The notes beneath the pieces were generated by a model, which searched no databases, was not told the origin of the DNA, and saw only the letters and a list, made by a program, of their open reading frames with translations. This document shows positions 3,997 through 64,000 of a DNA stretch of 64,000 nucleotides, in pieces (position 1 is the first letter of the stretch; the number at the start of each line of letters is the position of its first letter). This stretch comes from Candidatus Gastranaerophilales bacterium (GTDB lineage Bacteria; Cyanobacteriota; Vampirovibrionia; Gastranaerophilales; Gastranaerophilaceae): positions 1 to 64,000 of the forward strand of contig CALUVE010000005.1 in assembly GCA_944324135.1 (NCBI GenBank). The letters are read 5' to 3'. A program made the position numbers and the translations under genes.

Positions 3997-5262
3997 CTAA
4001 ATATTAGGCAAATCACCTTTAACTTCAGCAATTTCATCACTTTCAAGCTGAAATTCTTTGTGTAAAGCGGCTACTGCCCTTTTCGCATCCTCTTTGTCAA
4101 CCAGACAGCTTATTTTGATTTCACTTGTAGATATCATTCTAATGTTGACATTGAGTTTTGCAAGTGTTTCAAACATTGTAGATGCAATACCGGGACGGTC
4201 AATCATGCCGGCACCGACAATTGAAACTTTTGCAATATTTTCATCTATTTTAATATCTCCTGCCTTTAACTCGTCTTTCAATTCTTCCAGTGCAGCTTTT
4301 GTTTTTTCCAAATCACTACTGTCAATTGTAAACGCAATGTCATTTGTGTTAGACACTTTTCTTGCATATGATTGGATAATCATATCAACAGAGATACCTT
4401 CCTGAGCCAATTTGCCAAAAATCATTGCTGCCTGCCCCGGAGTATCCGGAACATCGCATACTACAATTCTTGCCTGTGACAAATCTGCCGCAACCCCTGC
4501 GACCGGTTTATATATTTCCATTTTGTCAACTCCTAATATTAAAGTACCTAAATTATCTGTCTTGAAGCTGCTGCGAACCCTGAGCGGAACATTAAACTGT
4601 TTTGCAGTTTCTACACTTCTCGGATGAAGTACGTTAGCTCCTGCGTGTGCTAACTCCAGCATCTCTTCGTATGAAATTTCACGTAGTCTTGACGCATTCG
4701 GCACAACACGCGGATCTGTCGTATAAACACCCTCTACATCTGTATAAATATCACAACGCTCTGCGTTCAAAGCAGCAGCAAGCGCCACCGCTGATGTATC
4801 TGAACCGCCGCGTCCGAGGGTTGTTATTTCACCGTCAGGAGTGACACCCTGAAAACCGGCTACTACAATAATTTTTCCCTCTTGAAGATTCTTCTTTAAT
4901 TTATCCGTCTTTATGTCAATAATTCTGGCTTTTGAATGGACATTTTCCGTTACAATACCTATCTGCATTGCGTTAAAACTGACCGCATCATAACCTGCAG
5001 CCTGTATTGCCATTGCCAAAAGCGCAATAGATACACCCTCTCCTGTTGAAAGAAGCATGTCCATTTCTCTGCTTGACGGATTAGGGCTTAAATCTTTTGC
5101 CATTTTGACAAGATAATCAGTTGTGTGCCCCATTGCGGAAACTACAACCACAACATCATTTCCGTTTTGTTTCTCCTTGATGACCGTACGGGCTACATTT
5201 TTAATTTTATCTGTGTCTGCTACCGATGTTCCGCCAAACTTTTGTACAATAATTTTTCTCAA
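3997..5262 (-). CDS. lysC: Aspartate kinase
   Basis: Phosphorylates aspartate in the first step of the Lys/Thr/Met and diaminopimelate pathway. The 421-residue length and order match the single-function ACT-regulated class. The kinase core holds IVQKFGGTSVAD at the start, VVSAMGHTTD, TTLGRGGSDTSAVALA and YTDVEGVYTTDPR. Two ACT domains follow from about residue 265 (VCDVPDTPGQAA and VSIVGAGMIDRPGIA), so feedback inhibition by lysine and/or threonine is expected. The start is a TTG at 5262, just 2 bases past the TPR gene stop, with no strong ribosome site; this suggests coupled translation. It lies within a four-gene minus-strand operon. Confidence 0.95.
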   Translation of the reverse strand: MRKIIVQKFGGTSVADTDKIKNVARTVIKEKQNGNDVVVVVSAMGHTTDYLVKMAKDLSPNPSSREMDMLLSTGEGVSIALLAMAIQAAGYDAVSFNAMQIGIVTENVHSKARIIDIKTDKLKKNLQEGKIIVVAGFQGVTPDGEITTLGRGGSDTSAVALAAALNAERCDIYTDVEGVYTTDPRVVPNASRLREISYEEMLELAHAGANVLHPRSVETAKQFNVPLRVRSSFKTDNLGTLILGVDKMEIYKPVAGVAADLSQARIVVCDVPDTPGQAAMIFGKLAQEGISVDMIIQSYARKVSNTNDIAFTIDSSDLEKTKAALEELKDELKAGDIKIDENIAKVSIVGAGMIDRPGIASTMFETLAKLNVNIRMISTSEIKISCLVDKEDAKRAVAALHKEFQLESDEIAEVKGDLPNI

Positions 5263-5264
5263 GA

Positions 5265-6761
5265 TTATTCACTTTCTTTGAAATTTTTTAATAAGTTTTC
5301 AAGTTCCTCTTTTTCTTTATGGTATTCAAAACCTGAATCACTTATTTGGATTATTTTTTCAGCTAGAGTTATAGCTTCTTTTATATTATATTCACAAACG
5401 TTTTCTTTGACAAGTGTATAACTGACAAAAAATTGTAAATTTAACACTTCTAAATCTTTGTCATAAATTTTAACGATTTTCCGCAGTTTTCTCTGCGCCT
5501 CAGAGTATTCATTATCAGCTATAAGAAACCTTGTATAATCCAATCCGCACTTAAGAAAATACGGATTTAAATTCATTGATTTTTCATAGAAATCAACAGC
5601 TTTTGATTTATTCTTTTTAACCTCATTAATTTTAGCCATAAAATATGTTGTCAAAAATTCAAAATCTTCTGTTTCAATTTTACGGAAAAGTGCGGCAGCA
5701 CCGTCGTAATTACCGTTATTATATTCTCTGACCGCCATAATCAAATCTATAATTATAGAGTCAGCCCCGCCGTCTTGAGCCATCTGTATCAAGACTTCGT
5801 CATCATTATGCTTCAGCATTCTTGTTAATGCCAGATATGCCATGCTTTCTGAGTTTTCGCCGTCGTATTCAAGCGCTTTTACAAACTTGTTTTCAGCTTC
5901 ATCAAAATTTGTAAATTTCAAAAGCGATTTGCCCCATTCTGTATAGAGATTTGAATTATTCAATTCTCTTTTTGCTGCTGTTGAATACATTTCAAGTGCT
6001 TTATCCCTGTCAAGCTCGACTGTATAAAGTTTACCGAGCAAAAGATATGACGGGAGCATGTTTTTATTAAATTCCAGAGATTTCATTGCATAATGCTTTG
6101 CGTTTTTGTAATCTTTTTTTATGAATTTCAGGTTTGCAAATTCGTAAGTGTTAGTTTCATTCGGGCAGACATTTGCAAGAAAAGTCAATTTAGCCTCGGC
6201 ATCTTTGTGCGCGCCAATCTTTATCTCACAAACAGCTGCAAGAAATATTGATGTGAAATTATATTTGTTAATTCTGGAGGCTGTAACAAACTTTTCTCTG
6301 GCATCTTCATATTTTTTTTGTTTCATTAAAGTCATGCCCCAGCCGGTAAAAGTATCGGAATTTGCCGGAGAGATTTTGTCAGCGTTTTCAAATGATTTTT
6401 CTGCCTCTTCAAAATCATTACATGCCAGTTGTGCAAACCCGAGTTTTTGCCATATAGTTTTATCTGTATAACATATCTGGGCTGATTTTTTATAGGCTTC
6501 CACAGCTTTGGAGTGTTCATTTTTTTTGTCATAAACAGTCCCGAGATACTTGTAAACAAGCGGGTCTTTTTCTGACAAGTTCAATGCTTCCAGAAGGATA
6601 GTTTCCGCCTCTATAAGATTGTTTTCCTCAAGACATTTTTTTGCACGGTTAACATAGGCAACCGTCGGCAGTGATTGAATTATTGTTGATTCTTTGTATT
6701 TGTCTATAGATAAATTCAGTTTTTTTATGTATTCAATTAATTTTTTTAACCTGTTAAACAA
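5265..6761 (-). CDS. Tetratricopeptide repeat protein, 498 aa
   Basis: A solenoid of about 12 TPR-like units spans nearly the whole protein. Characteristic repeats include AETILLEALNLSEKDPLVYKY, LGTVYDKKNEHSKAVEAYKK and LGFAQLACNDFEEAEKSFE. There is no signal peptide or membrane anchor, so it is probably a cytoplasmic scaffold. Its partner is unknown. It starts at a TTG (6761) overlapping the last 16 bases of the KdsC-like gene, with GAGAGG upstream, and it runs directly into lysC, so the order in the operon is phosphatase, TPR, lysC, membrane protein. Confidence 0.85.
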   Translation of the reverse strand: MFNRLKKLIEYIKKLNLSIDKYKESTIIQSLPTVAYVNRAKKCLEENNLIEAETILLEALNLSEKDPLVYKYLGTVYDKKNEHSKAVEAYKKSAQICYTDKTIWQKLGFAQLACNDFEEAEKSFENADKISPANSDTFTGWGMTLMKQKKYEDAREKFVTASRINKYNFTSIFLAAVCEIKIGAHKDAEAKLTFLANVCPNETNTYEFANLKFIKKDYKNAKHYAMKSLEFNKNMLPSYLLLGKLYTVELDRDKALEMYSTAAKRELNNSNLYTEWGKSLLKFTNFDEAENKFVKALEYDGENSESMAYLALTRMLKHNDDEVLIQMAQDGGADSIIIDLIMAVREYNNGNYDGAAALFRKIETEDFEFLTTYFMAKINEVKKNKSKAVDFYEKSMNLNPYFLKCGLDYTRFLIADNEYSEAQRKLRKIVKIYDKDLEVLNLQFFVSYTLVKENVCEYNIKEAITLAEKIIQISDSGFEYHKEKEELENLLKNFKESE

Positions 6762-37197: not shown

Positions 37198-38232
37198 TTA
37201 TACACTATCGGCAAGATGAGTGGCAATAATTTGCGCAACGTGAGGCGGTATTTCATAATACTCTCCCTCCAAAGCCGTGAATACAAAGCGTTTTACGTTT
37301 GGACGTTCCAATTTTAACAATATTTCCATCTTTGGTTTATCTAAATATTCCGCAACACTTTGAACCTGTGCCACTATTTTTGAGGTGTCAATAATCCGTT
37401 TTTTAGGTAAACTTTTTCTGATTTCTGCCAGACATCTAAGTGCGTGACCTGCATCTACTTTGTCTGTCAAATTATCAACACTCATATACTTGATAACTTC
37501 TGTTGCATCCTGCACGTCAAACTTATCCAGAATAGTCTGAACTTTATCCTGTTTCATTTTCTGGAAAAGCATTGCACAGGTAACAAGCTTAAGCAGCTTC
37601 GGAGTTTGCATTGCGCCTTTTTGTGCCGGAGCTCCGCCAGCTGCCGCCGGAGCAGGAACATTTGCGGCCTGTGGCTGTGGTGGTTGGGCCTGTGCCTGTG
37701 GCTGCGGAACAGGTTCTTCCGGAGGGGCTTCTTCCTGCATTTGCTGCATCATTGCATCTATGTTTGACTGGCTTTCTGCTTTTTGTTTTAAGCCCTCGTC
37801 TATCAGACCTTTTGCCTTTAATTCTTCTATTGACTCAATATAAACTTTTTTTACGTGGTGTTCTATTAATTGGAGAATTTGTTCCTGCGGAAGCCCCTGC
37901 TTGAATGTCTGCTTTGCTATTTCGAAAATAGTAAAAGCTATTTTCTGCATAATAGGATCCCAGTAATCCTGAGGCAGTCCTGAACGGATTAAGTCTACGG
38001 ATTTGTGGTATGCCCACTCTGCAATTATCTGGGTTATCATCACTGCCTGATCGACATTGAAATTCGATTCTGTATCATTATACAAAGCTTCACCGGCCAG
38101 ATTTGAAAAATTGTACAACGTATTAATTACGTACTGCTTTTCAAAGTCTTTAAACTCCGGCGGCACCAGTTCTTGTGCCTGCCCTGCTAAATTCTTCGCA
38201 AATTCTTGATAATCAAACCCTTTTATTGCCAT
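37198..38232 (-). CDS. Unknown protein encoded at the fliG position
   Basis: It lies between fliF and fliH, exactly where the rotor protein FliG is normally encoded, but I cannot recognise FliG's motifs. The 344-residue protein has a helical N-terminal domain (about 1-175; FAKNLAGQAQELVPPEFKDF), a Pro/Gln/Ala-rich linker (about 185-225) and a helical C-terminal domain (KLLKLVTCAMLFQKMKQDKV, ILLKLERPNVKRFVFTALEG). It may be a strongly diverged FliG or a different adaptor that joins FliF to the cytoplasmic complex. The start is the ATG at 38232; an earlier GTG pair is possible. The gene's own upstream sequence is part of a tandem repeat. Confidence 0.7.
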   Translation of the reverse strand: MAIKGFDYQEFAKNLAGQAQELVPPEFKDFEKQYVINTLYNFSNLAGEALYNDTESNFNVDQAVMITQIIAEWAYHKSVDLIRSGLPQDYWDPIMQKIAFTIFEIAKQTFKQGLPQEQILQLIEHHVKKVYIESIEELKAKGLIDEGLKQKAESQSNIDAMMQQMQEEAPPEEPVPQPQAQAQPPQPQAANVPAPAAAGGAPAQKGAMQTPKLLKLVTCAMLFQKMKQDKVQTILDKFDVQDATEVIKYMSVDNLTDKVDAGHALRCLAEIRKSLPKKRIIDTSKIVAQVQSVAEYLDKPKMEILLKLERPNVKRFVFTALEGEYYEIPPHVAQIIATHLADSV

Positions 38233-38238
38233 TTTTTT

Positions 38239-38477
38239 CACCACTACTTACTAATTATCACTCTGCCGCTGTATTAGATTTTCGTAGCCCTTTCTCTGTC
38301 TTTTAGGTTGCGCTTTTTACCTGTCAACCCATCTGTTTTTTTTCACCACTACTTACTAATTATCGTTCTGCCGCTGTATTAGATTTTCGTAGCCCTTTCT
38401 CTGTCTTTCAGGTTGCGCTTTTTACCTGTCAACCCGTCTGTTTTTTTCACCACTACTTACTAATTTTCGTTCCGTCG
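38239..38477. repeat. Tandem repeat, unit about 105 bases, between fliF and the fliG-position gene
   Basis: CACCACTACTTACTAAT recurs at 38239, 38344 and 38448, giving periods of 105 and 104 bases. Two full units differ by only a few bases and a third is partial (about 30 bases). Each unit carries, on the minus strand, TTGACAGGTAAAAAGCGC and the AGTAGTGGTGAAAAA sequence that precedes the next gene's start. No coding potential is seen. Confidence 0.85.
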
Positions 38478-38497
38478 CTGTGTTAGTGTTTCATTAA

Positions 38498-53622: not shown

Positions 53623-54591
53623 ATGTCCGTAAATAACGTCAGTTCAATCAGTACAGAAAATCTAAACACAATAAAGGCAAAAGCCGCAGAAATAACTTCC
53701 TCATCAGGAGGAAGCATCTGGAATGACTACAAAAATTTTGACCTGAACGGCGACGGCAGTATTTCCGATGACATAGAAAACATGTCTGATGCCGACCTTT
53801 ACAGAATGGGACAGCAGATGGGCATTCTAAGTGACGGAACAGTACAGGCGACAAAACAGAGCGAAGAAACCGGCAACTGTTACCTGTTGAGCGGAGTAAA
53901 CGCGCTGAGTAACACCACCTGGGGCAAAGAAGCTATTCAAAATGCAATAGAGCCAACAGAAGATGGCGGTTACAATGTTACATTTTATAACTCTGACGGG
54001 GAGAAAGAAACCGTCAATATAAGCGCAGAAGAACTTGCTGCAAACCCTGAGAAATACTCGAGCGGCGATGTTGATATGAAAATTATTGAAGTTGCTGCAG
54101 AAAAATTCTATTCCGCTCATCTGGATGAGGATGCTTACAGCTATAAAGATAAAAATACCCCTCTGACAGAAGGGCTTATGGAGGGGAAAACCTCTATACT
54201 ATATATGCTGACAGGCAGTGAAGGGCATGTACTGCAATCAACAGAATTAGATAAAAGAATTCACGAAAGCGCGCTGGCATCAGATAGAGGAGCACTTACC
54301 GATGAAACACTGCAGCAAGAACTGCTGGAGATTGCCTCAAATCCTGATGGTTATGCGGCAACCTGCGCGTTTAAAAAACCGGGATTTTTCCAGAAATTAT
54401 TCGGCGGCGGTGATACTGTGTCTGCCCACGGATACTCCATAAAAGAAGTAATCCAATCACCTGACGGCGGCATCCAATCAGTAATTGTTCAGAATCCTTG
54501 GGACAGCTCTAAAGAAATTGTAATGTCTTATAAAGACTTTAAATCTCAGGTGGCTTATTTTGTAACACATAATCAGAATGATACTTTCTAA
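53623..54591 (+). CDS. Calpain-like cysteine protease with N-terminal EF-hand-like loop
   Basis: A 322-residue protein with the C2 (calpain) peptidase layout. Cys86 in SEETGNCYLLSGVNALS, His269 in DTVSAHGYSIKEV and Asn291 in VQNPWDSSKE match the catalytic triad region of calpains (GDCW, HAY, NPWG). An EF-hand-like loop, DLNGDGSISDD, lies at residues 40-50, so calcium control is plausible. The loop has Ile instead of Glu at position 12. There is no Sec signal. The start MSVNNVSSISTENLN resembles that of the 55646 protein. It could be an exported effector or a cytoplasmic protease; function is inferred. It stands alone with its own terminator. Confidence 0.75.
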   Translation: MSVNNVSSISTENLNTIKAKAAEITSSSGGSIWNDYKNFDLNGDGSISDDIENMSDADLYRMGQQMGILSDGTVQATKQSEETGNCYLLSGVNALSNTTWGKEAIQNAIEPTEDGGYNVTFYNSDGEKETVNISAEELAANPEKYSSGDVDMKIIEVAAEKFYSAHLDEDAYSYKDKNTPLTEGLMEGKTSILYMLTGSEGHVLQSTELDKRIHESALASDRGALTDETLQQELLEIASNPDGYAATCAFKKPGFFQKLFGGGDTVSAHGYSIKEVIQSPDGGIQSVIVQNPWDSSKEIVMSYKDFKSQVAYFVTHNQNDTF

Positions 54592-55466: not shown

Positions 55467-55645
55467 AATTATTTCTCCCTCGTAAAATACTAAGCTACCA
55501 ATTAATAATAACTTAAATAATTTTTTTTTGCAAATTTTTACAATTTAGAGATTGTTAACAAATGTAACAAAAAGCTAACATGCTGAAATCAGCTGATTTC
55601 GGATGTTTTTATATCTTTAGAGAGTATAAAATACAGGAGAGCTTT

Positions 55646-57556
55646 GTGGGCGTAAATAACGTTCAAAATATGAATAAAGCCGAGCTATATAAATTAGCGA
55701 AGCAAAAGAGCGGACAGCAGACAACTGTCTCTCAACAGTCCTGGATGACATCCACAGGCTCTATTTTCAATGCGCCGCAAGCAAGATCAGCATCAAGCAA
55801 AACACAACCTGCACCAACAGGACAAACTCAAGAAAATCAACAGCCTGAAAATAAAAAACTTGAAATGTACCAAAAACATTGGGGCGAAGAAAAAGGTTCT
55901 GAAATATACGAAAAGAAATACGGGTCAGATGATGTTCAGAATGCCCCGCAGACAAGAAATTCAAGCAGTACATCAGGCGGTGCTAAAGCCGAAGATGACC
56001 CGATGGCAAAATATGAAAATGTAGACAACGCCTCTGATGGTAAAGCTCTTGCACAAGAGGGCGACAAAATTGCATCAGACGGTCAATCTCAAGCTGAAGA
56101 AATTGAAGCTGAAGGCCAAAATTCAGAAAAAGTAAGCAAAGATGCAACCAAAACAGCAAAAGACCTCACAAAAGAAAACAAAACATTTGAAAAGAAAATA
56201 AAACAAGAACAAAAAACATTCATGCAGGCTCAAAAAGAAATTGAAAAAGCCGCAGAAGAAATAGAAAAAGCACAAGTTGAAATGGATGCGATTAACGCAG
56301 AAATCGAAAGTCTGCAGAGTGCGCAATCAAGCAGATCAATGTCAGCTTCAAGCTCATCAGACGGCGTAAGCAGCGGTTCTGATGACACTTCCAGCAAAAT
56401 TGCCGATTTGCAAACAAAAGCAAATTCACTCGGGCAGATAATGATTTCTAACGGTAAAATTATTCAAACAAAACAAAAAGTTTCTACAAAATCTTTGAAA
56501 AGCATGAATAAGATGAGTAAAACTTTCAACAAAAACAATATCAAAATCCAAAAACAACTTGAAACACAATCAACAGAACAGAGCAAAGTAATTCAGGTAG
56601 CTGAGAAACTTGACAAAGTATTCCAGACCATATCACAGGTCGGCCAGGCCTTAAAAATCGGCGGTCAGGCACTTATAGCATTAGGTTCAGCAACATCCTG
56701 GTGCGGTGTTGGTGCTGCATTGATTTCAGCAGGTTCATTTATGATGAAAGCCGGTAACGTTGTAGAACTCGTTGGTAACTACGGTACGATGGCTGCAAAC
56801 ATAACCAAGACAGCAGCGTACGCAGCTGAGGGCAACCTTGCAGGAGCTCTGCAGAGCGCAGGTACAGCAATTATGTCAGGTGCTGCTGCTATTAAAGGCA
56901 CAAAAGAATTCTCCTCAACAATGGATGCAATTAACCAGAAAGCTGAAAATGCAACCAAAAACCTCGCAGCAAATGCAGCAGCTAAAGATCTTGCAAATAC
57001 CGAACAGGCTAAAGAATTGATGGAACAAACAGGAATGAGCAAATCTGCCCTCAAGAAAGATTACAAAGCTCAGATTATGCAAAACGGAATGACTGGTGAT
57101 ACTGCTGCTGAAATGAGAGATAGTATAACAAAAGGCACAGATATTAATGGTAAATCCTTTGCGGATAGTTTCACGGCAAATGCTGATGGTCATATCACCG
57201 GAGCAAAAGACAAATTATTAATGAATAATGAAAAACTTGCCGGAAAATCCAAAAAACTTGCAAGAAAAGCAAATAAAATGGTTAAAAATGCTGCAAACAA
57301 CGATATTAACGAAATCAACAATAAATGGGCAAGTGCAATTCCGCAGTCTAAGAGCAGCAAAATGTTTGAAAACGCTAAGAAAATCGGTTCTTCACTCGCT
57401 GCAGCCGGTTCACAAATGCAAATGTACAATGATATGGCAGCTGCAGGTACAGGCAACCAAGTTGGCTATGTCGGACACAGACTCACCAATCCTGCCAGAA
57501 CAAGACAGGTTATCGCGAACATTAACAAAAGGAGATACGGCGGCGCTATTGGCTAA
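55646..57556 (+). CDS. Large coiled-coil protein with central hydrophobic segment (translocator-like)
   Basis: The start is the GTG at 55646, five bases after AGGAGA; this gives a 636-residue protein beginning MGVNNVQNMNKAEL. Residues 1-130 are polar and rich in Ser/Gln. A long coiled coil follows (about 140-245, KEIEKAAEEIEKAQVEMDAI). The hydrophobic segment (about 340-385; IGGQALIALGSATSW, VGAALISAGSFMMKAG, NVVELVGNYGTM) is flanked by helices. The C-terminal 250 residues are Ala/Lys-rich. This order resembles type III translocators (IpaB/SipB), but similarity is in layout only. No Sec signal. Its start resembles the calpain-like protein. Followed by a terminator. Confidence 0.75.
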   Translation: MGVNNVQNMNKAELYKLAKQKSGQQTTVSQQSWMTSTGSIFNAPQARSASSKTQPAPTGQTQENQQPENKKLEMYQKHWGEEKGSEIYEKKYGSDDVQNAPQTRNSSSTSGGAKAEDDPMAKYENVDNASDGKALAQEGDKIASDGQSQAEEIEAEGQNSEKVSKDATKTAKDLTKENKTFEKKIKQEQKTFMQAQKEIEKAAEEIEKAQVEMDAINAEIESLQSAQSSRSMSASSSSDGVSSGSDDTSSKIADLQTKANSLGQIMISNGKIIQTKQKVSTKSLKSMNKMSKTFNKNNIKIQKQLETQSTEQSKVIQVAEKLDKVFQTISQVGQALKIGGQALIALGSATSWCGVGAALISAGSFMMKAGNVVELVGNYGTMAANITKTAAYAAEGNLAGALQSAGTAIMSGAAAIKGTKEFSSTMDAINQKAENATKNLAANAAAKDLANTEQAKELMEQTGMSKSALKKDYKAQIMQNGMTGDTAAEMRDSITKGTDINGKSFADSFTANADGHITGAKDKLLMNNEKLAGKSKKLARKANKMVKNAANNDINEINNKWASAIPQSKSSKMFENAKKIGSSLAAAGSQMQMYNDMAAAGTGNQVGYVGHRLTNPARTRQVIANINKRRYGGAIG

Positions 57557-57622: not shown

Positions 57623-60600
57623 TTACTTGTTCAGAGAGATTGCTTGATTTTCTTCAAGAAGAACGTTCATATAGAGTAATTTGTTTGCAGTTGCCTGGTC
57701 TAAGTTGATGAACTCTGCACCGGCTCTTCTATCGGTTGCTGATACAACTTTTACATCAGCTTCAATATCAAGGTCGCCGTATGAAATTTGTACAGGGATT
57801 ACATCACCGACTTTAACTTGGTTGTGGTGTTTAAGAGCGATACCGCCTCTTGAAATATCAACCAGTGATTCAATCTTGCTGTTCTGAGCCAACTCTACAG
57901 GGTTTCTGTTACCTTCAACCTGGAATCTCATATATTGACGTTTGTCAATTGTTGAGATGTTTTCATCGTAGTCTTTTCTGTAAGTCAACTTACCCATGTT
58001 ATCGTATTCGGTAACTTCATCGTCATCAGAGTCAGCATCAGCATCAGCATCGGCATCTGCGTCAGCATCGGCATCTGCATCGGCATCAGCATCGGCATCT
58101 GCATCTGCGTCAGCGTCAGCATCAGCGTCTGCATCGGCATCGGCATCAGCGTCAGCATCAGCATCGGCATCGGCATCAGCGTCAGCATCAGCATCTGCAT
58201 CAGCGTCTGCATCAGCATCAGCATCTGCATCAGCATCAGCATCTGCATCTGCATCAGCGTCTGCATCGGCATCTGCGTCAGCATCGGCATCAGCATCAGC
58301 ATCAGCATCAGCATCAGCATCGGCATCAGCATCGGCATCGGCATCAGCGTCTGCATCTGCATCGGCGTCAGCATCGGCATCAGCATCTGCATCAGCATCA
58401 GCATCAGCATCAGCGTCTGCATCAGCATCAGCGTCAGCATCGGCGTCTGCATCAGCATCAGCATCAGCATCGGCATCAGCATCTGCATCAGCATCAGCAT
58501 CAGCGTCTGCATCAGCATCAGCGTCTGCATCAGCATCAGCATCAGCATCAGCATCGGCATCGGCATCAGCATCAGCATCAGCATCAGCATCGGCATCAGC
58601 ATCAGCATCAGCATCGGCATCTGCATCTGCGTCAGCATCAGCGTCAGCATCAGCATCTGCATCGGCGTCAGCATCGGCATCTGCATCGGCGTCAGCGTCA
58701 GCGTCAGCGTCTGCATCAGCATCAGCATCGGCATCAGCATCAGCATCAGCATCAGCGTCTGCGTCAGCATCAGCGTCTGCATCAGCATCAGCATCAGCAT
58801 CAGCGTCTGCATCAGCGTCAGCGTCTGCATCAGCATCAGCGTCAGCGTCTGCATCAGCGTCAGCGTCTGCATCAGCATCAGCGTCTGCATCGGCATCTGC
58901 ATCTGCATCAGCGTCAGCATCAGCATCAGCATCGGCATCTGCATCTGCATCTGCGTCAGCATCAGCGTCAGCATCAGCATCAGCGTCTGCATCAGCATCA
59001 GCGTCTGCATCGGCATCTGCGTCTGCATCAGCATCAGCGTCAGCATCAGCATCGGCGTCTGCATCTGCATCTGCATCAGCATCTGCGTCTGCATCAGCAT
59101 CTGCATCGGCGTCAGCATCGGCATCAGCGTCTGCGTCAGCATCGGCATCGGCGTCTGCATCTGCATCAGCATCTGCGTCTGCATCAGCATCTGCATCGGC
59201 GTCTGCATCTGCATCAGCATCTGCGTCTGCATCAGCATCTGCGTCAGCGTCTGCGTCTGCGTCAGCATCAGCGTCAGCATCAGCATCTGCGTCAGCATCA
59301 GCATCTGCGTCTGCGTCTGCGTCTGCGTCAGCATCAGCGTCAGCATCAGCATCTGCGTCAGCGTCTGCGTCAGCATCAGCGTCAGCGTCAGCATCTGCAT
59401 CGGCATCAGCGTCAGCATCAGCATCAGCATCAGCGTCTGCGTCAGCATCAGCGTCTGCGTCAGCATCTGCATCTGAGTCTAATGGCATTTCATCGTCACC
59501 ATAATAATTTCTTTCATCTTCATCACGACCAATTGCAGTTACATCTTCAGGTCTTACTGCTTTTGCAGTTAAAGTTAAATCTTCACCTTCGATTTCGTTT
59601 GTGCTGTCATCAGCAACTCTTGTACCGTAATTGTCTTTTCCTAATGAAATATAAACACCGTCAGCGTAAATATTATCAGCAGTGATAGTCATTTCGCCGC
59701 CGTCCTGGAGGCTGCCGTTTTCAACTTTAACAATTGAATCAGCCCAGTTTTTATCAACTCTTGTATTTTTGTTAATATCTAAAGCTTTTAATTCAACATT
59801 TTTCGGTTTAACATTGCTGTTTGGACCATAGTAATCAACCGGAGTATTAGGAACTGAACCTAAGTTTTCAATGTTCAATTCAGCACCGCGGGTTGTAATG
59901 TTCAAATCTTTTGCGGCAGTTGTTTCTTTTACGTTAACATTACCTGCAAATTCTGCATTGATGCTGCCGTTTTTAGCAATCATTGTATTTACATTTGTTT
60001 CGCTGTAAGCATCGCTGTGACCTTTAATATTAATATCGTTGATAGCTAAAGCGTTGAATTCATAGTTGTCAGCATCAGTCTGGTTGAAAGTTAATTTGTT
60101 GTTTTTCTCACCGATGTTGCCGCTTGCGATTAAGGAAACACCAGTACCTTGAACGTTTGCTTTGCTAGAATCAGAAGAAGCGTTCAAGATTGAGTAAGGA
60201 GTTTGACCTTTAGTTGAAGAATCAGCAAGAAGTGCAACCTGACCGTCTGCAATGATGCTGTCAACATTCATATTAGAATCTTTGCTAGCCATATTGATTG
60301 ACAGGTTGTTGCCAGAATTTTTTGTATCGGTTGTAGTTGCATTAACTTTGCCCTGTACGTTGATGTTAACTGATTTTGTCAAATCTCTTGCATCAGGTCC
60401 AATGCCATCGTTGTGGAAAGTACCGATTTTGCCGTTTTTAACATCAATGTTTAAGTTGTTACCTGCTTTTAATAAAGTTTTGTCATAACCTGCATTTAAC
60501 AAATTACCGTTTTCAAGGTTGATGTTGATGTTGTTTCTTGCATCCAGGTTGTTGTTAACAGAAGCACCACCGATAACTACATCTGAATTGCTGTTTTTAA

Positions 60601-61516
60601 CTTTGATGTTGTTGCCAGTAACTTTACCGTTAACTTTGATACCTTGAGAACCAGCGTTTGTCAGGATTGTATTATCACCGGCGTTTTGAACTTTTGCAGC
60701 TGATGCGATTTTGATACCGCCGTTTGCGCCGTTTGTAAGTTCAACGTTGCCGCTGTTTGCCATATTTTTAACTGCACCGTTAACTTCAATTCCGTTTGAA
60801 GTTTTGATTACGATATTTCCGTTTTCAGCAGCGAACTGATTGCCGCTTGTTGCTTCTGTATTAACCAATTGAGAAAATAAAGCGTTTGCCTGAGCTGCTG
60901 AGTTGAATACATCTGTGTTACCTTTAACACCTGACATAATTCCTGCATTTGCACCGATTGTTGCAGTTTTTGCAAGAACTTCAACATCTCCTCTGGAAAT
61001 AACTTTACCATTGATTGTTACATTGGAAGTACCGTCTTTTACCATTGCTAAGTCTTGAGTAAGGAAATTTTTCTTATAATTTTTGAAATCATCGGAATTC
61101 GGGGTATAAACAGCTAAAGAACCAACGTTGAGAACACCTGATGCTCCTACAACCATACCGTTAGGTGAAACGAATACAGCCTGTCCGTTGTAGAAGTTGC
61201 CGTCTCTCATAGAATTAACAATACCATTGATGTTAATCTGGTTATCAACAAGGTTTACAAATCTTTCAAGATTTTTTGCACCGTATTTGAAAATAAGGTT
61301 TGCAATATCGCCTTCAGAAAGATTGAAGTCTTTATATTGTCTGAAACCTGTTGTCCCGTTAACTGCGCTAGGATTGATGTCGAAAACACCATTGTTGCCG
61401 GTTACACCTGTGATAGTGCTTGCCATTACATTTAAAGCCATTGTTTGATGAGCTAAGAAACATACTGTGAGCAGTGATGCTACAAGCTTTCTTTTGTTAA
61501 TTTTTCCGTGATCCAT
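57623..61516 (-). CDS. Filamentous adhesin with (Asp-Ala)240 stalk and PilZ-like C-terminal domain
   Basis: A 1297-residue secreted adhesin in three parts. Residues 1-32 are a signal peptide ([20 protein letters not shown] with [12 protein letters not shown]). Residues 33-680 follow the filamentous hemagglutinin/LktA layout with [20 protein letters not shown], then repeated beta-helix-like Asn/Gly-rich units. Residues 682-1162 are 481 residues of strict Asp-Ala alternation. Residues 1163-1297 hold a PilZ-like domain with RxxxR (R1193-R1197, RQYMR) and DISRGG at 1220-1225. PilZ domains normally bind cyclic di-GMP in the cytoplasm, so one behind a secreted stalk is unusual. The start is the ATG at 61516 after GAAAGGAAGTACAGC. 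Confidence 0.88.
58031..59473 (-). repeat. 1443-base (Asp-Ala)n codon repeat
   Basis: On the minus strand GAY-GCN codons alternate without a change in amino acid for 481 codons. Asp is encoded by GAT or GAC, and Ala by GCT, GCC or GCA; I saw no GCG. Synonymous differences are scattered along the array rather than arranged in long identical blocks. The other reading frames of the same DNA are also free of stop codons. Confidence 0.95.
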
Positions 61517-61732
61517 GCTGTACTTCCTTTCAATTTTTCCCAAATTTTTTAACTATTTATATTCCGTGTACTCTTAATTTTATCAAGAGGGTTTTCTTTT
61601 TTCTAGTAATTTTTTAATTTATTACAATTAATTAACATGCTTTTTGAATGTATATTTATATAAAAAACCGGACAAAAAAAATATTGCTCTTTTGTAACAA
61701 AATATTACAGCAAATAATATATCAAATATATA

Positions 61733-61792: not shown

Positions 61793-64000
61793 TTATTCTT
61801 CAGAATCAGATGGTTTGTTGATATCAGAAACTTCGCCATAGATTGCAAGTTCACCCTCTTTATTCAAGAATTGAACTACATCTTCCGTAGAAGTGACTTT
61901 GCCGCTTATTATTGTTCCTTTTTCGCCTGTGTTTACAAATCTGATGTTTTTGTCATTGTTTATTTCTGCATTTACACCAACTGAAATTCCTGTGCCGTAG
62001 TTTGAAATTACAACAGAATCAGATTCATTATTTATCTTGCCGTTGATGTACAAACCGCCGTCATTATTAATAGCCGTGAATTTCTTTGTATCAAATGAAC
62101 CGTTAAGGGTCATACCGTCACTGCCTGAGTTTTTGATTAGCATATCGCCTGTTGATGAAATCACAGCATCTTCTCCGATATACAAACCTGTACCGTCATT
62201 TGTAATGTTGATTGATGAACCGTCAGCTCCGGAAGTGATAATATTTCCCTCTTTAATATCAAGGCTTCCTGCTTTGTTTGTAATTTTTATCAAATCGTCA
62301 CCGAGGACAGTACCGTTGATTATAGTACCTTCGCTGCCTGTGTTTGTAACATCAACACGTTTTGCGACAGTTTTTCCTGAAAGACGAAGATTATTGCTGT
62401 TATTTTTTATTATAAGCTTGTCCCCGCTTGTCAAATCTCCATTGCTGACCATTCCGCCTTTTGTGTTGATGATAGTTGTAGAACCGGATTGGGCAATCAT
62501 ATTATTGTTGTCATCCAAACTTCCGTAACTGCTAATTTGACCGTTATGGATTATGCCGTTTTCACCAAAGTTCTGAATCGTCAAGTCACCGTTTTCTGCT
62601 GCGATATAAGAATCTTTGTCCGTTACAAAAGAATAAGTTGCATTAGATAATTTAAGGTCACCGTCTTTTGTATAAACAGTACCGTTAACTTTAAATCCGC
62701 CGTCTTTGTTGATGATTGTAGTATTTCCGTTTGTCAAAATGCTTCCATCTACTGTTGTGCCGTGCTCGCCATAGTTCAAAATTGTTGTTGTTCCGCTATT
62801 ATTGGCAACAGAGCTTTCATAGCCGAAATTAAGTGCGCCGTCGCCTTTATTTGTAATTCCAAGCTTGCCGTTTGAGTTTTCTATTGAACCGTTAACTTCC
62901 ATATTGCCGTCATAGTTCAAGAGAGTTGTATTACCGCTATTTGCAATTTTGCCGTTGAATTGTGCGCCGTTCGGTCCGAAATTCTGGACGAAAACTGCTC
63001 CGTTGTGGTTCACAACCGACTCATCAGTAATTTCCATGCCGGCACCTGAATTATTCATATTCAATGCGCCTGATGTGTTGAATTTTGCGCCAACTGTCAA
63101 CTTGCCGCCTTTATTTGTTATAACGGTTGATTTTGTGTTTTCAATCTCTCCGTTTACTGTCATCCCGTAACTTCCTGAACTTAACAAACGGATAACGCCG
63201 TCATTTGAAAGTTTTGCGTCTGATTTTACATCAAGACTGACCCCCTCATTTGTTATCAAAAGATTTCCGCCTTTATTTGAAATATTACCTGAAATTTTCA
63301 TACGGCTTGCAGTATTTTTAATTGTTGTTGCACCGTTTTCATTAGTTATATTTCCGGAAACCTCCATTTCATTATTATTGTTTGAGAGAAGTATATTTCC
63401 TTTTTTAGTTGAAATATTACCATCAATATAAGCACCGTTTTTGCCATTGTTTGTCATTGTAATGTTGCCTTTGGTGCTTATGTCGCCGCTTACCTTTAAT
63501 GAACCGTTATTGTTCGTAACTATTATATTTCCGTTAGCGTTTTCTATTTTCCCGCCAAGGAGGGTATTATGAGACCCCTCGTTTGTAATCGTTATATGTC
63601 CTTTGCCAAAATTTTTGATAGTTCCTGCAGTACTGACTTTGCCGTTAGTGGTGTCACTTTTTATTACAATTTTACCGTTTTCTGCAGCAAAAGAATTTGC
63701 GTTTTTAACATCAATATTGACCAGTCTGCTGAAAATATTTTCAGCCTGCTTTGAAGAAGTAATAGCAGATGAATATTTAACACCAGCCAGCACCTGTGAA
63801 GATGCACCAAGTTCTACATCTCTGCCAAGTAATTCAATACCGCTCCTTGAAATAACTTTGCCGTCTATAGCAATATCTGCCTTGCCTGAGGCTATTGAAT
63901 TCAAATCCTGAGTTTTGTAATTGTTCTTGTAATTTCTATAATCGCTGCTTGATGGAGTATAAACAGCAAGAGAACCAACGTTCAATACACCTGATGCGCC
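61793..64000 (-). CDS. Second filamentous adhesin, LktA-type, partial
   Basis: The reading frame is open to the right edge, so the N-terminus is missing. The 735 visible residues begin [20 protein letters not shown], matching the equivalent region of the adhesin at 57623 (both have [16 protein letters not shown]), so the two are paralogues. Then follow about 20 repeats of a beta-helix-like unit with alternating NxGxxT/INGxI and ITNxG patterns (KGNILLSNNNNEMEVSGNIT). The C-terminus ends DINKPSDSEE with no stalk, PilZ or anchor domain. Probably secreted in the same way as its neighbour. Confidence 0.88.
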   Translation of the reverse strand, partial: GASGVLNVGSLAVYTPSSSDYRNYKNNYKTQDLNSIASGKADIAIDGKVISRSGIELLGRDVELGASSQVLAGVKYSSAITSSKQAENIFSRLVNIDVKNANSFAAENGKIVIKSDTTNGKVSTAGTIKNFGKGHITITNEGSHNTLLGGKIENANGNIIVTNNNGSLKVSGDISTKGNITMTNNGKNGAYIDGNISTKKGNILLSNNNNEMEVSGNITNENGATTIKNTASRMKISGNISNKGGNLLITNEGVSLDVKSDAKLSNDGVIRLLSSGSYGMTVNGEIENTKSTVITNKGGKLTVGAKFNTSGALNMNNSGAGMEITDESVVNHNGAVFVQNFGPNGAQFNGKIANSGNTTLLNYDGNMEVNGSIENSNGKLGITNKGDGALNFGYESSVANNSGTTTILNYGEHGTTVDGSILTNGNTTIINKDGGFKVNGTVYTKDGDLKLSNATYSFVTDKDSYIAAENGDLTIQNFGENGIIHNGQISSYGSLDDNNNMIAQSGSTTIINTKGGMVSNGDLTSGDKLIIKNNSNNLRLSGKTVAKRVDVTNTGSEGTIINGTVLGDDLIKITNKAGSLDIKEGNIITSGADGSSINITNDGTGLYIGEDAVISSTGDMLIKNSGSDGMTLNGSFDTKKFTAINNDGGLYINGKINNESDSVVISNYGTGISVGVNAEINNDKNIRFVNTGEKGTIISGKVTSTEDVVQFLNKEGELAIYGEVSDINKPSDSEE

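Follow-up and report, generated by a model that had tools for sequence, protein, structure and literature searches.

We describe an adhesin gene encoded in a 64,000-nucleotide stretch of DNA from a Candidatus Gastranaerophilales bacterium (GenBank assembly GCA_944324135.1, contig CALUVE010000005.1, positions 1 to 64,000; the window), whose product joins a two-partner secretion (TPS) adhesin to a C-terminal PilZ domain. It is a new variant of the TPS adhesins with a family of PilZ domains placed after a signal peptide, and this arrangement is real and conserved. The first-pass annotation had read a signal peptide, a filamentous hemagglutinin (FHA)-type region, 481 residues of Asp-Ala and a PilZ-like domain in one gene; that architecture is confirmed, with the signal peptide as a prediction, and PilZ on a signal-peptide adhesin proves to be lineage-wide. 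Its parts are as follows.

57623..61516, minus strand: gene for the PilZ-tailed TPS adhesin, 1,297 residues counted from the ATG
61421..61516, minus strand: predicted Sec signal peptide, read off the sequence
60947..61384, minus strand: TPS secretion domain (NF012204, adhes_FxxPxG)
59501..61420, minus strand: beta-solenoid, which includes the TPS domain (AlphaFold2)
58031..59473, minus strand: Asp-Ala stalk, 481 residues in strict alternation
57677..57943, minus strand: PilZ domain (PF07238 match and predicted fold)
57926..57940, minus strand: RxxxR motif (RQYMR)
57842..57859, minus strand: DxSxxG motif (DISRGG)

The open frame (57623..61543, minus strand) begins at a TTG and encodes 1,306 residues, the first ATG being residue 10 (61516); the ATG chosen in the first pass agrees with the frame, and the TTG lies nine codons before it. 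From the N to the C terminus, the product consists of signal peptide, NF012204 domain, beta-solenoid, Asp-Ala stalk and PilZ. The FHA-type region matches NCBIfam model NF012204 (E 2.8e-41), which identifies a TPS secretion domain, and AlphaFold2 models the solenoid with strands throughout at a mean predicted local distance difference test score of 91.1 and a predicted template modelling score of 0.87, as expected of a beta-helical passenger. A profile search and a structure prediction, the checks first suggested for the C-terminal region (residues 1163-1297 numbered from the ATG, a range that spans the end of the stalk and the PilZ domain), both bear out the assignment: residues 1201-1289 match PF07238 (E 1.6e-7, with a score of 32 bits where the curated cut-off is 22.5), the predicted fold is that of PilZ, and both motifs of cyclic di-GMP (c-di-GMP) binding, RQYMR and DISRGG, are present. 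Misassembly of a separate C-terminal gene is ruled out because the same fusion recurs across many independent assemblies, and an internal start giving a separate cytoplasmic PilZ is unlikely, since the homologues share no Met before the domain (DNA and homologues read by eye). Searched against the sequences of solved structures, the PilZ profile returned a single weak match, Lpg0364 (E 0.0013). This genome encodes one further PilZ protein, a 201-residue frame without a signal peptide.

A single 118-residue query found matches in 37 of 99 relatives, and a profile scan of 292 genomes of the phylum matched 101, 100 of them in the same family and one a 7 Mb genome elsewhere; 171 genomes without a match are omitted from its listing and at least 20 same-family genomes have none, so that these counts do not give an exact family rate. 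A scan of named genomes yielded 209 relatives, from which 78 loci were kept; their titles are mostly Candidatus Gastranaerophilales, uncultured Melainabacteria and uncultured bacterium, with odd singles such as Fusobacterium sp. CAG:439. A protein search with the tail returned 556 proteins at E ≤ 0.001 (120 of the 556 listed). Among 60 family members in the relatives sample, cross-counted by eye, the PilZ module occurs in 33/37 genomes with a strong NF012204 match versus 1/23 without, and ShlB in 36/37 versus 15/23; the one PilZ without a strong NF012204 match (genome G005; G, C and L are our handles for genomes, contigs and loci) is a 207-residue frame without a signal peptide. Two genomes with a TPS adhesin, G037 and G056, gave no PilZ match in the relatives sample or the fetched stretches, which are not certain to cover the frame ends. 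A second giant adhesin family, whose members have a conserved short linker and end in PilZ, was seen at L043, L044, L079, L081 and L045 (G001, G035, G045, G003 and G050); its frames reach about 5,000-6,400 residues in four loci, and ShlB adjoins in G001, G003, G035 and G045.

All 136 distinct modules selected by profile retain the two arginines and (D/N)xSxxG, at a mean column identity of only 38% in a 39-row alignment of the module. These 136 are distinct last-90-residue strings, comprising 83 complete frames of at least 600 residues, 11 short but complete frames, among them a piece of a giant (L025), and 42 cut by the end of a contig or fetched stretch; the profile leans towards the motifs because almost all of the 39 sequences behind it were originally retrieved with a pattern that contains them. 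Modules picked instead by a C-terminal pattern without the motifs keep both of them in 92 of 92 cases, in a set that overlaps the first and favours close relatives. The G080 frame likewise keeps both; these counts include neither the G032 tail nor the remaining weak members of the 292-genome scan. The suggestion that the domain has lost nucleotide binding is thus disfavoured for this protein and for most relatives, although two divergent tails, considered below, have lost arginines.

Where the domain resides is indicated by what precedes it. A signal-peptide-like start opens 82 of 83 complete homologous frames, as judged by our own heuristic and not a dedicated predictor; the exception, L164 (603 residues), looks like a piece of a broken frame. 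The signal peptide and TPS domain point away from a cytosolic PilZ, and no transmembrane segment was found at the stalk-PilZ junctions, which were read by eye. In eight relatives a TpsB, the expected cognate transporter, lies beside a PilZ adhesin that is intact. Furthermore, ten short frames (166-247 residues) combine a signal-peptide-like start with a PilZ that keeps both motifs, and at eight loci (L087, L041, L142, L152, L153, L155, L158 and L159) a PilZ adhesin is followed immediately, on the same strand, by such a frame. In G065, from another family of the order, a 173-residue protein of this kind (L193 6125-6646, plus strand) is divergent from tpsB (4276-6051, minus strand), their listed starts being 73 bp apart, and no TPS adhesin lies within the 12 kb read; by position, G070 shares this pair, and its exported PilZ is of the same sequence type. 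In the shortest of these proteins, RxxxR follows an AxA-like site after only about 14-28 residues, which argues against a cytosolic tail and for an extracytoplasmic PilZ in this lineage. We therefore consider it likely that the domain lies outside the cytoplasm. Of the two options first proposed, work outside or across the envelope is accordingly the favoured one; the analysis shows the architecture, predicted folds, conservation and neighbours, from which export and a periplasmic place are inferred. As to the partner in this genome, a TpsB on contig C21 (L083 6898-8967, minus strand), about 150 residues precede its first POTRA match; they could comprise a signal peptide and a periplasmic extension able to meet the PilZ tail. 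A second ShlB match, on C7, was rejected as a TpsB, being BamA-like.

The stalk occupies residues 691-1171 of 1,306. Its codons are GAT (169), GAC (72), GCT (134), GCA (71) and GCC (35), and none of the 481 encodes anything other than Asp or Ala. The same gene in the sister species G002 carries 483 Asp-Ala residues, with 84% identity to our stalk at the DNA level across one 6-base gap and 89% identity outside it. Because the codons vary only synonymously and the sister species keeps 483 residues, the stalk is judged to be under selection at the protein level, and neutral expansion of a hexamer repeat was rejected on the same grounds. Linkers of relatives, measured from a landmark to 20 residues before RxxxR in 74 of the 83 complete adhesins (nine without the landmark were dropped), span 54-530 residues in 71/74 and 11 residues in three giants of about 5,000 residues, with a median of 212.5. 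Besides Asp-Ala, relatives have Asp-Thr/Ser, poly-Asp, Pro-rich or Gly-rich linkers; classed by their two commonest residues, 26 are Asp-Thr, 11 Asp-Ala, 8 Pro-Asp and 8 Pro-Thr (n = 74). A spacer is thus general, and pure Asp-Ala is one solution. The stalk recalls the Ser-Asp stalks of the MSCRAMM Clf and Sdr proteins, also acidic dipeptide stalks between adhesive head and anchor, but the adhesin here lacks an LPXTG end, and MSCRAMM anchoring belongs to the Gram-positive wall. Kinship was rejected: NCBIfam models match only the low-complexity stalk, ClfB scoring 287 bits where 999 are required, and SdrD, SdrC and ClfA likewise falling far below their curated cut-offs. Several contigs of relatives (among L041, L085, L086, L087, L088, L089, L090 and L091) end within the stalk repeat; assemblies therefore probably break there, and full-length adhesins would be under-counted. 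The stalk also opens other frames, a (Ser-Ala)n frame of 502 residues at window positions 57996-59504 (plus strand) and, at 57985-59472 (minus strand), one of 495 residues rich in Met, Leu, Gln and Thr, which are likely by-products of the repeat and could be mis-annotated as genes.

The PilZ domains of YcgR, Alg44, MapZ and MrkH share the fold and both binding motifs with ours; they act in the cytosol, whereas the domain here follows a signal peptide. The known anchors of TPS proteins are of another kind. HMW1 and HxuA keep their C terminus in the periplasm by a disulfide-closed loop (PMC5422565), where our adhesin has PilZ. A close parallel is CdrA-CdrB with LapD/LapG of Pseudomonas aeruginosa, where c-di-GMP governs, via the periplasmic C terminus, whether a TPS adhesin stays on the surface: CdrA is freed when the protease LapG cuts the periplasmic tail at low c-di-GMP (PMC5422565, PMC8472254). 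CdrA differs in its disulfide hook and in that its sensing of c-di-GMP is indirect, by way of LapD and LapG, whereas here a putative receptor lies within the adhesin. ExlA-ExlB of the same species is also a TPS protein kept at the outer membrane at high c-di-GMP, by a link that its authors call indirect (PMC8472254). At least two cysteines in the last 150 residues were found in none of 92 PilZ adhesin frames of at least 600 residues. Since the cysteine pair is absent from these frames, PilZ as a folded plug that replaces the hook is an economical reading, and the constrained ligand site suggests that such a plug could be switchable.

We propose, tentatively and at somewhat less than even confidence, that PilZ is a periplasmic plug switched by c-di-GMP. 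The protein would be exported by Sec through its predicted signal peptide; the TPS domain, judging by its fold and by the TpsB neighbours in relatives, would then engage the TpsB pore, and the solenoid would thread outward. The acidic low-complexity stalk may serve as a spacer in and beyond the pore, until the compact PilZ barrel fails to pass and anchors the protein, taking the place of the disulfide hook in which HMW1, HxuA and CdrA end. The conserved ligand site would make the plug switchable, with periplasmic c-di-GMP as the first candidate ligand, and the short exported PilZ proteins next to some adhesins could be plug partners or competitors. A stronger form of this proposal is a one-protein switch, in which periplasmic c-di-GMP on the PilZ tail decides whether the adhesin is locked in the TpsB pore or released and the small exported PilZ proteins act as competing caps; we regard this form as possible but doubtful. 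c-di-GMP is the obvious ligand because GGDEF proteins are encoded in 99/99 relatives, with five at E ≤ 1e-10 in this genome. A periplasmic c-di-GMP pool, with cytoplasmic synthesis and presumed transport, was described in Stenotrophomonas maltophilia in 2024 (PMC11404848). There, a periplasmic region of BtsD binds the nucleotide, as is putative here, although that region is the N terminus of a diguanylate cyclase and is not presented there as a PilZ receptor or adhesin (PMC11404848).

Several observations weigh against a switched plug. c-di-GMP is usually regarded as cytosolic (PMC8472254), and an exported GGDEF protein as ligand source was rejected for this genome: the five GGDEF frames read look cytoplasmic or membrane-bound and none carries a signal peptide alone (a sixth, weak match, L038, was left out). 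The only TpsB of the genome is unlinked to the adhesin, two of the three adhesins at the locus have no PilZ, and the part assigned to the short exported PilZ proteins is putative. Moreover, two divergent giants with an adjoining TpsB depart from the motifs: the G033 tail, which HMMER drops under default filters and recovers with filters off, has no RxxxR and keeps NxSxxG, and the G008 tail has lost the second arginine and the D/N. The tail can therefore persist without the full site, which slightly lowered our confidence in the switch, already short of even. These giants (L202/L080 of G033 and L199 of G008), whose tails lack one or both arginines, offer natural contrasts for the switch idea.

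The same two tails, still C-terminal though their arginines are lost, favour a purely structural anchor in the periplasm or at the surface, or an assembly module, that has become independent of any nucleotide. There are PilZ folds that lack a c-di-GMP switch, in XC1028 and in Campylobacterota (PMC12943098), and the absence of an extracytoplasmic ligand source among the five GGDEF frames fits as well. We nevertheless hold this unlikely, given both motifs in every one of the 136 and 92 modules despite the low identity in the 39-row alignment; Leptospira PilZ proteins were classed as non-functional because the arginines are missing (PMC12943098). The earlier idea of a folding or anchoring module thus survives in part, in that anchoring is likely, but as a ligand-competent anchor.

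Two further explanations differ from a periplasmic plug in where they place the domain. The whole protein might be secreted, and PilZ might work outside on extracellular c-di-GMP or some other anionic ligand of the matrix, for example to cross-link adhesins. No other recognisable anchor exists at the adhesin C terminus, and the short PilZ proteins look fully exported; we know of no extracellular nucleotide in this lineage. Extracellular c-di-GMP does alter biofilm and adherence of Campylobacter jejuni (PMC9608569). Judging by the anchors of HMW1, HxuA and CdrA, the pore would more probably arrest a folded barrel that ends a TPS passenger (PMC5422565), and we think full secretion rather improbable. 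Alternatively, translocation might halt at the inner membrane, with a cytosolic PilZ tail folding on c-di-GMP and tethering the adhesin via both membranes while the stalk spans the periplasm. This would directly explain why a cytosolic ligand site is conserved, and the linkers of 54 to 530 residues fit it; the three giants with 11-residue linkers, the lack of transmembrane segments at the junctions, and the shortest signal-peptide-PilZ proteins, which have too few residues for a cytosolic tail after cleavage, make it highly unlikely.

The gene is the last of three TPS adhesins in tandem (2,589, 858 and 1,306 residues), and it alone has stalk and PilZ; G002 has frames of 2,598, 874 and 1,311 residues in the same order. 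The other two have no cysteine after the signal peptide; they may leave the cell or be retained by the third. Additional features of the locus and the window are the following.

L039 10557-18326, minus strand: first TPS adhesin, 2,589 residues, no stalk, no PilZ
61793..64000, on to contig position 64369, minus strand: second TPS adhesin, 858 residues, no stalk, no PilZ
55580-57556, plus strand: 658-residue protein convergent with the adhesin, no Pfam match; similar genes near the adhesin in G002 and G010
53623-54591, plus strand: 322-residue protein, no Pfam match, with a GNCYLLSGVNAL stretch that may resemble a calpain-like cysteine peptidase site
38232-38486: tandem repeat, 105 bp, 2.4 copies, 94% matches

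As a rule, c-di-GMP receptors are considered cytosolic. CdrA, the TPS adhesin whose connection to c-di-GMP is best known, is reached through LapD, which relays the signal at the membrane, and the LapG protease. In the open-access literature, we found no PilZ with an adhesin in Melainabacteria, nothing on topic, by listing, for Gastranaerophilales adhesins, and for PilZ with two-partner secretion and TpsA only the ExlA work; among the matches listed, judged by titles, the starts of abstracts and passages of PMC12943098, PMC12564702 and PMC3482391, we recognised no exported PilZ. If the one-protein switch is correct, these proteins would be the first PilZ receptor family working beyond the inner membrane, and c-di-GMP control of adhesion would be a property of the adhesin itself. 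The fusion also suggests one possible type of mechanism by which c-di-GMP could keep TPS proteins such as ExlA on the cell. PilZ fused to TPS adhesins, as a separate signal-peptide protein beside them and next to tpsB, provides direct test objects for a question that the periplasmic pool described in 2024 raises, whether c-di-GMP acts outside the cytoplasm, in a common and largely uncultured gut lineage of which the PilZ adhesins are major predicted surface proteins.
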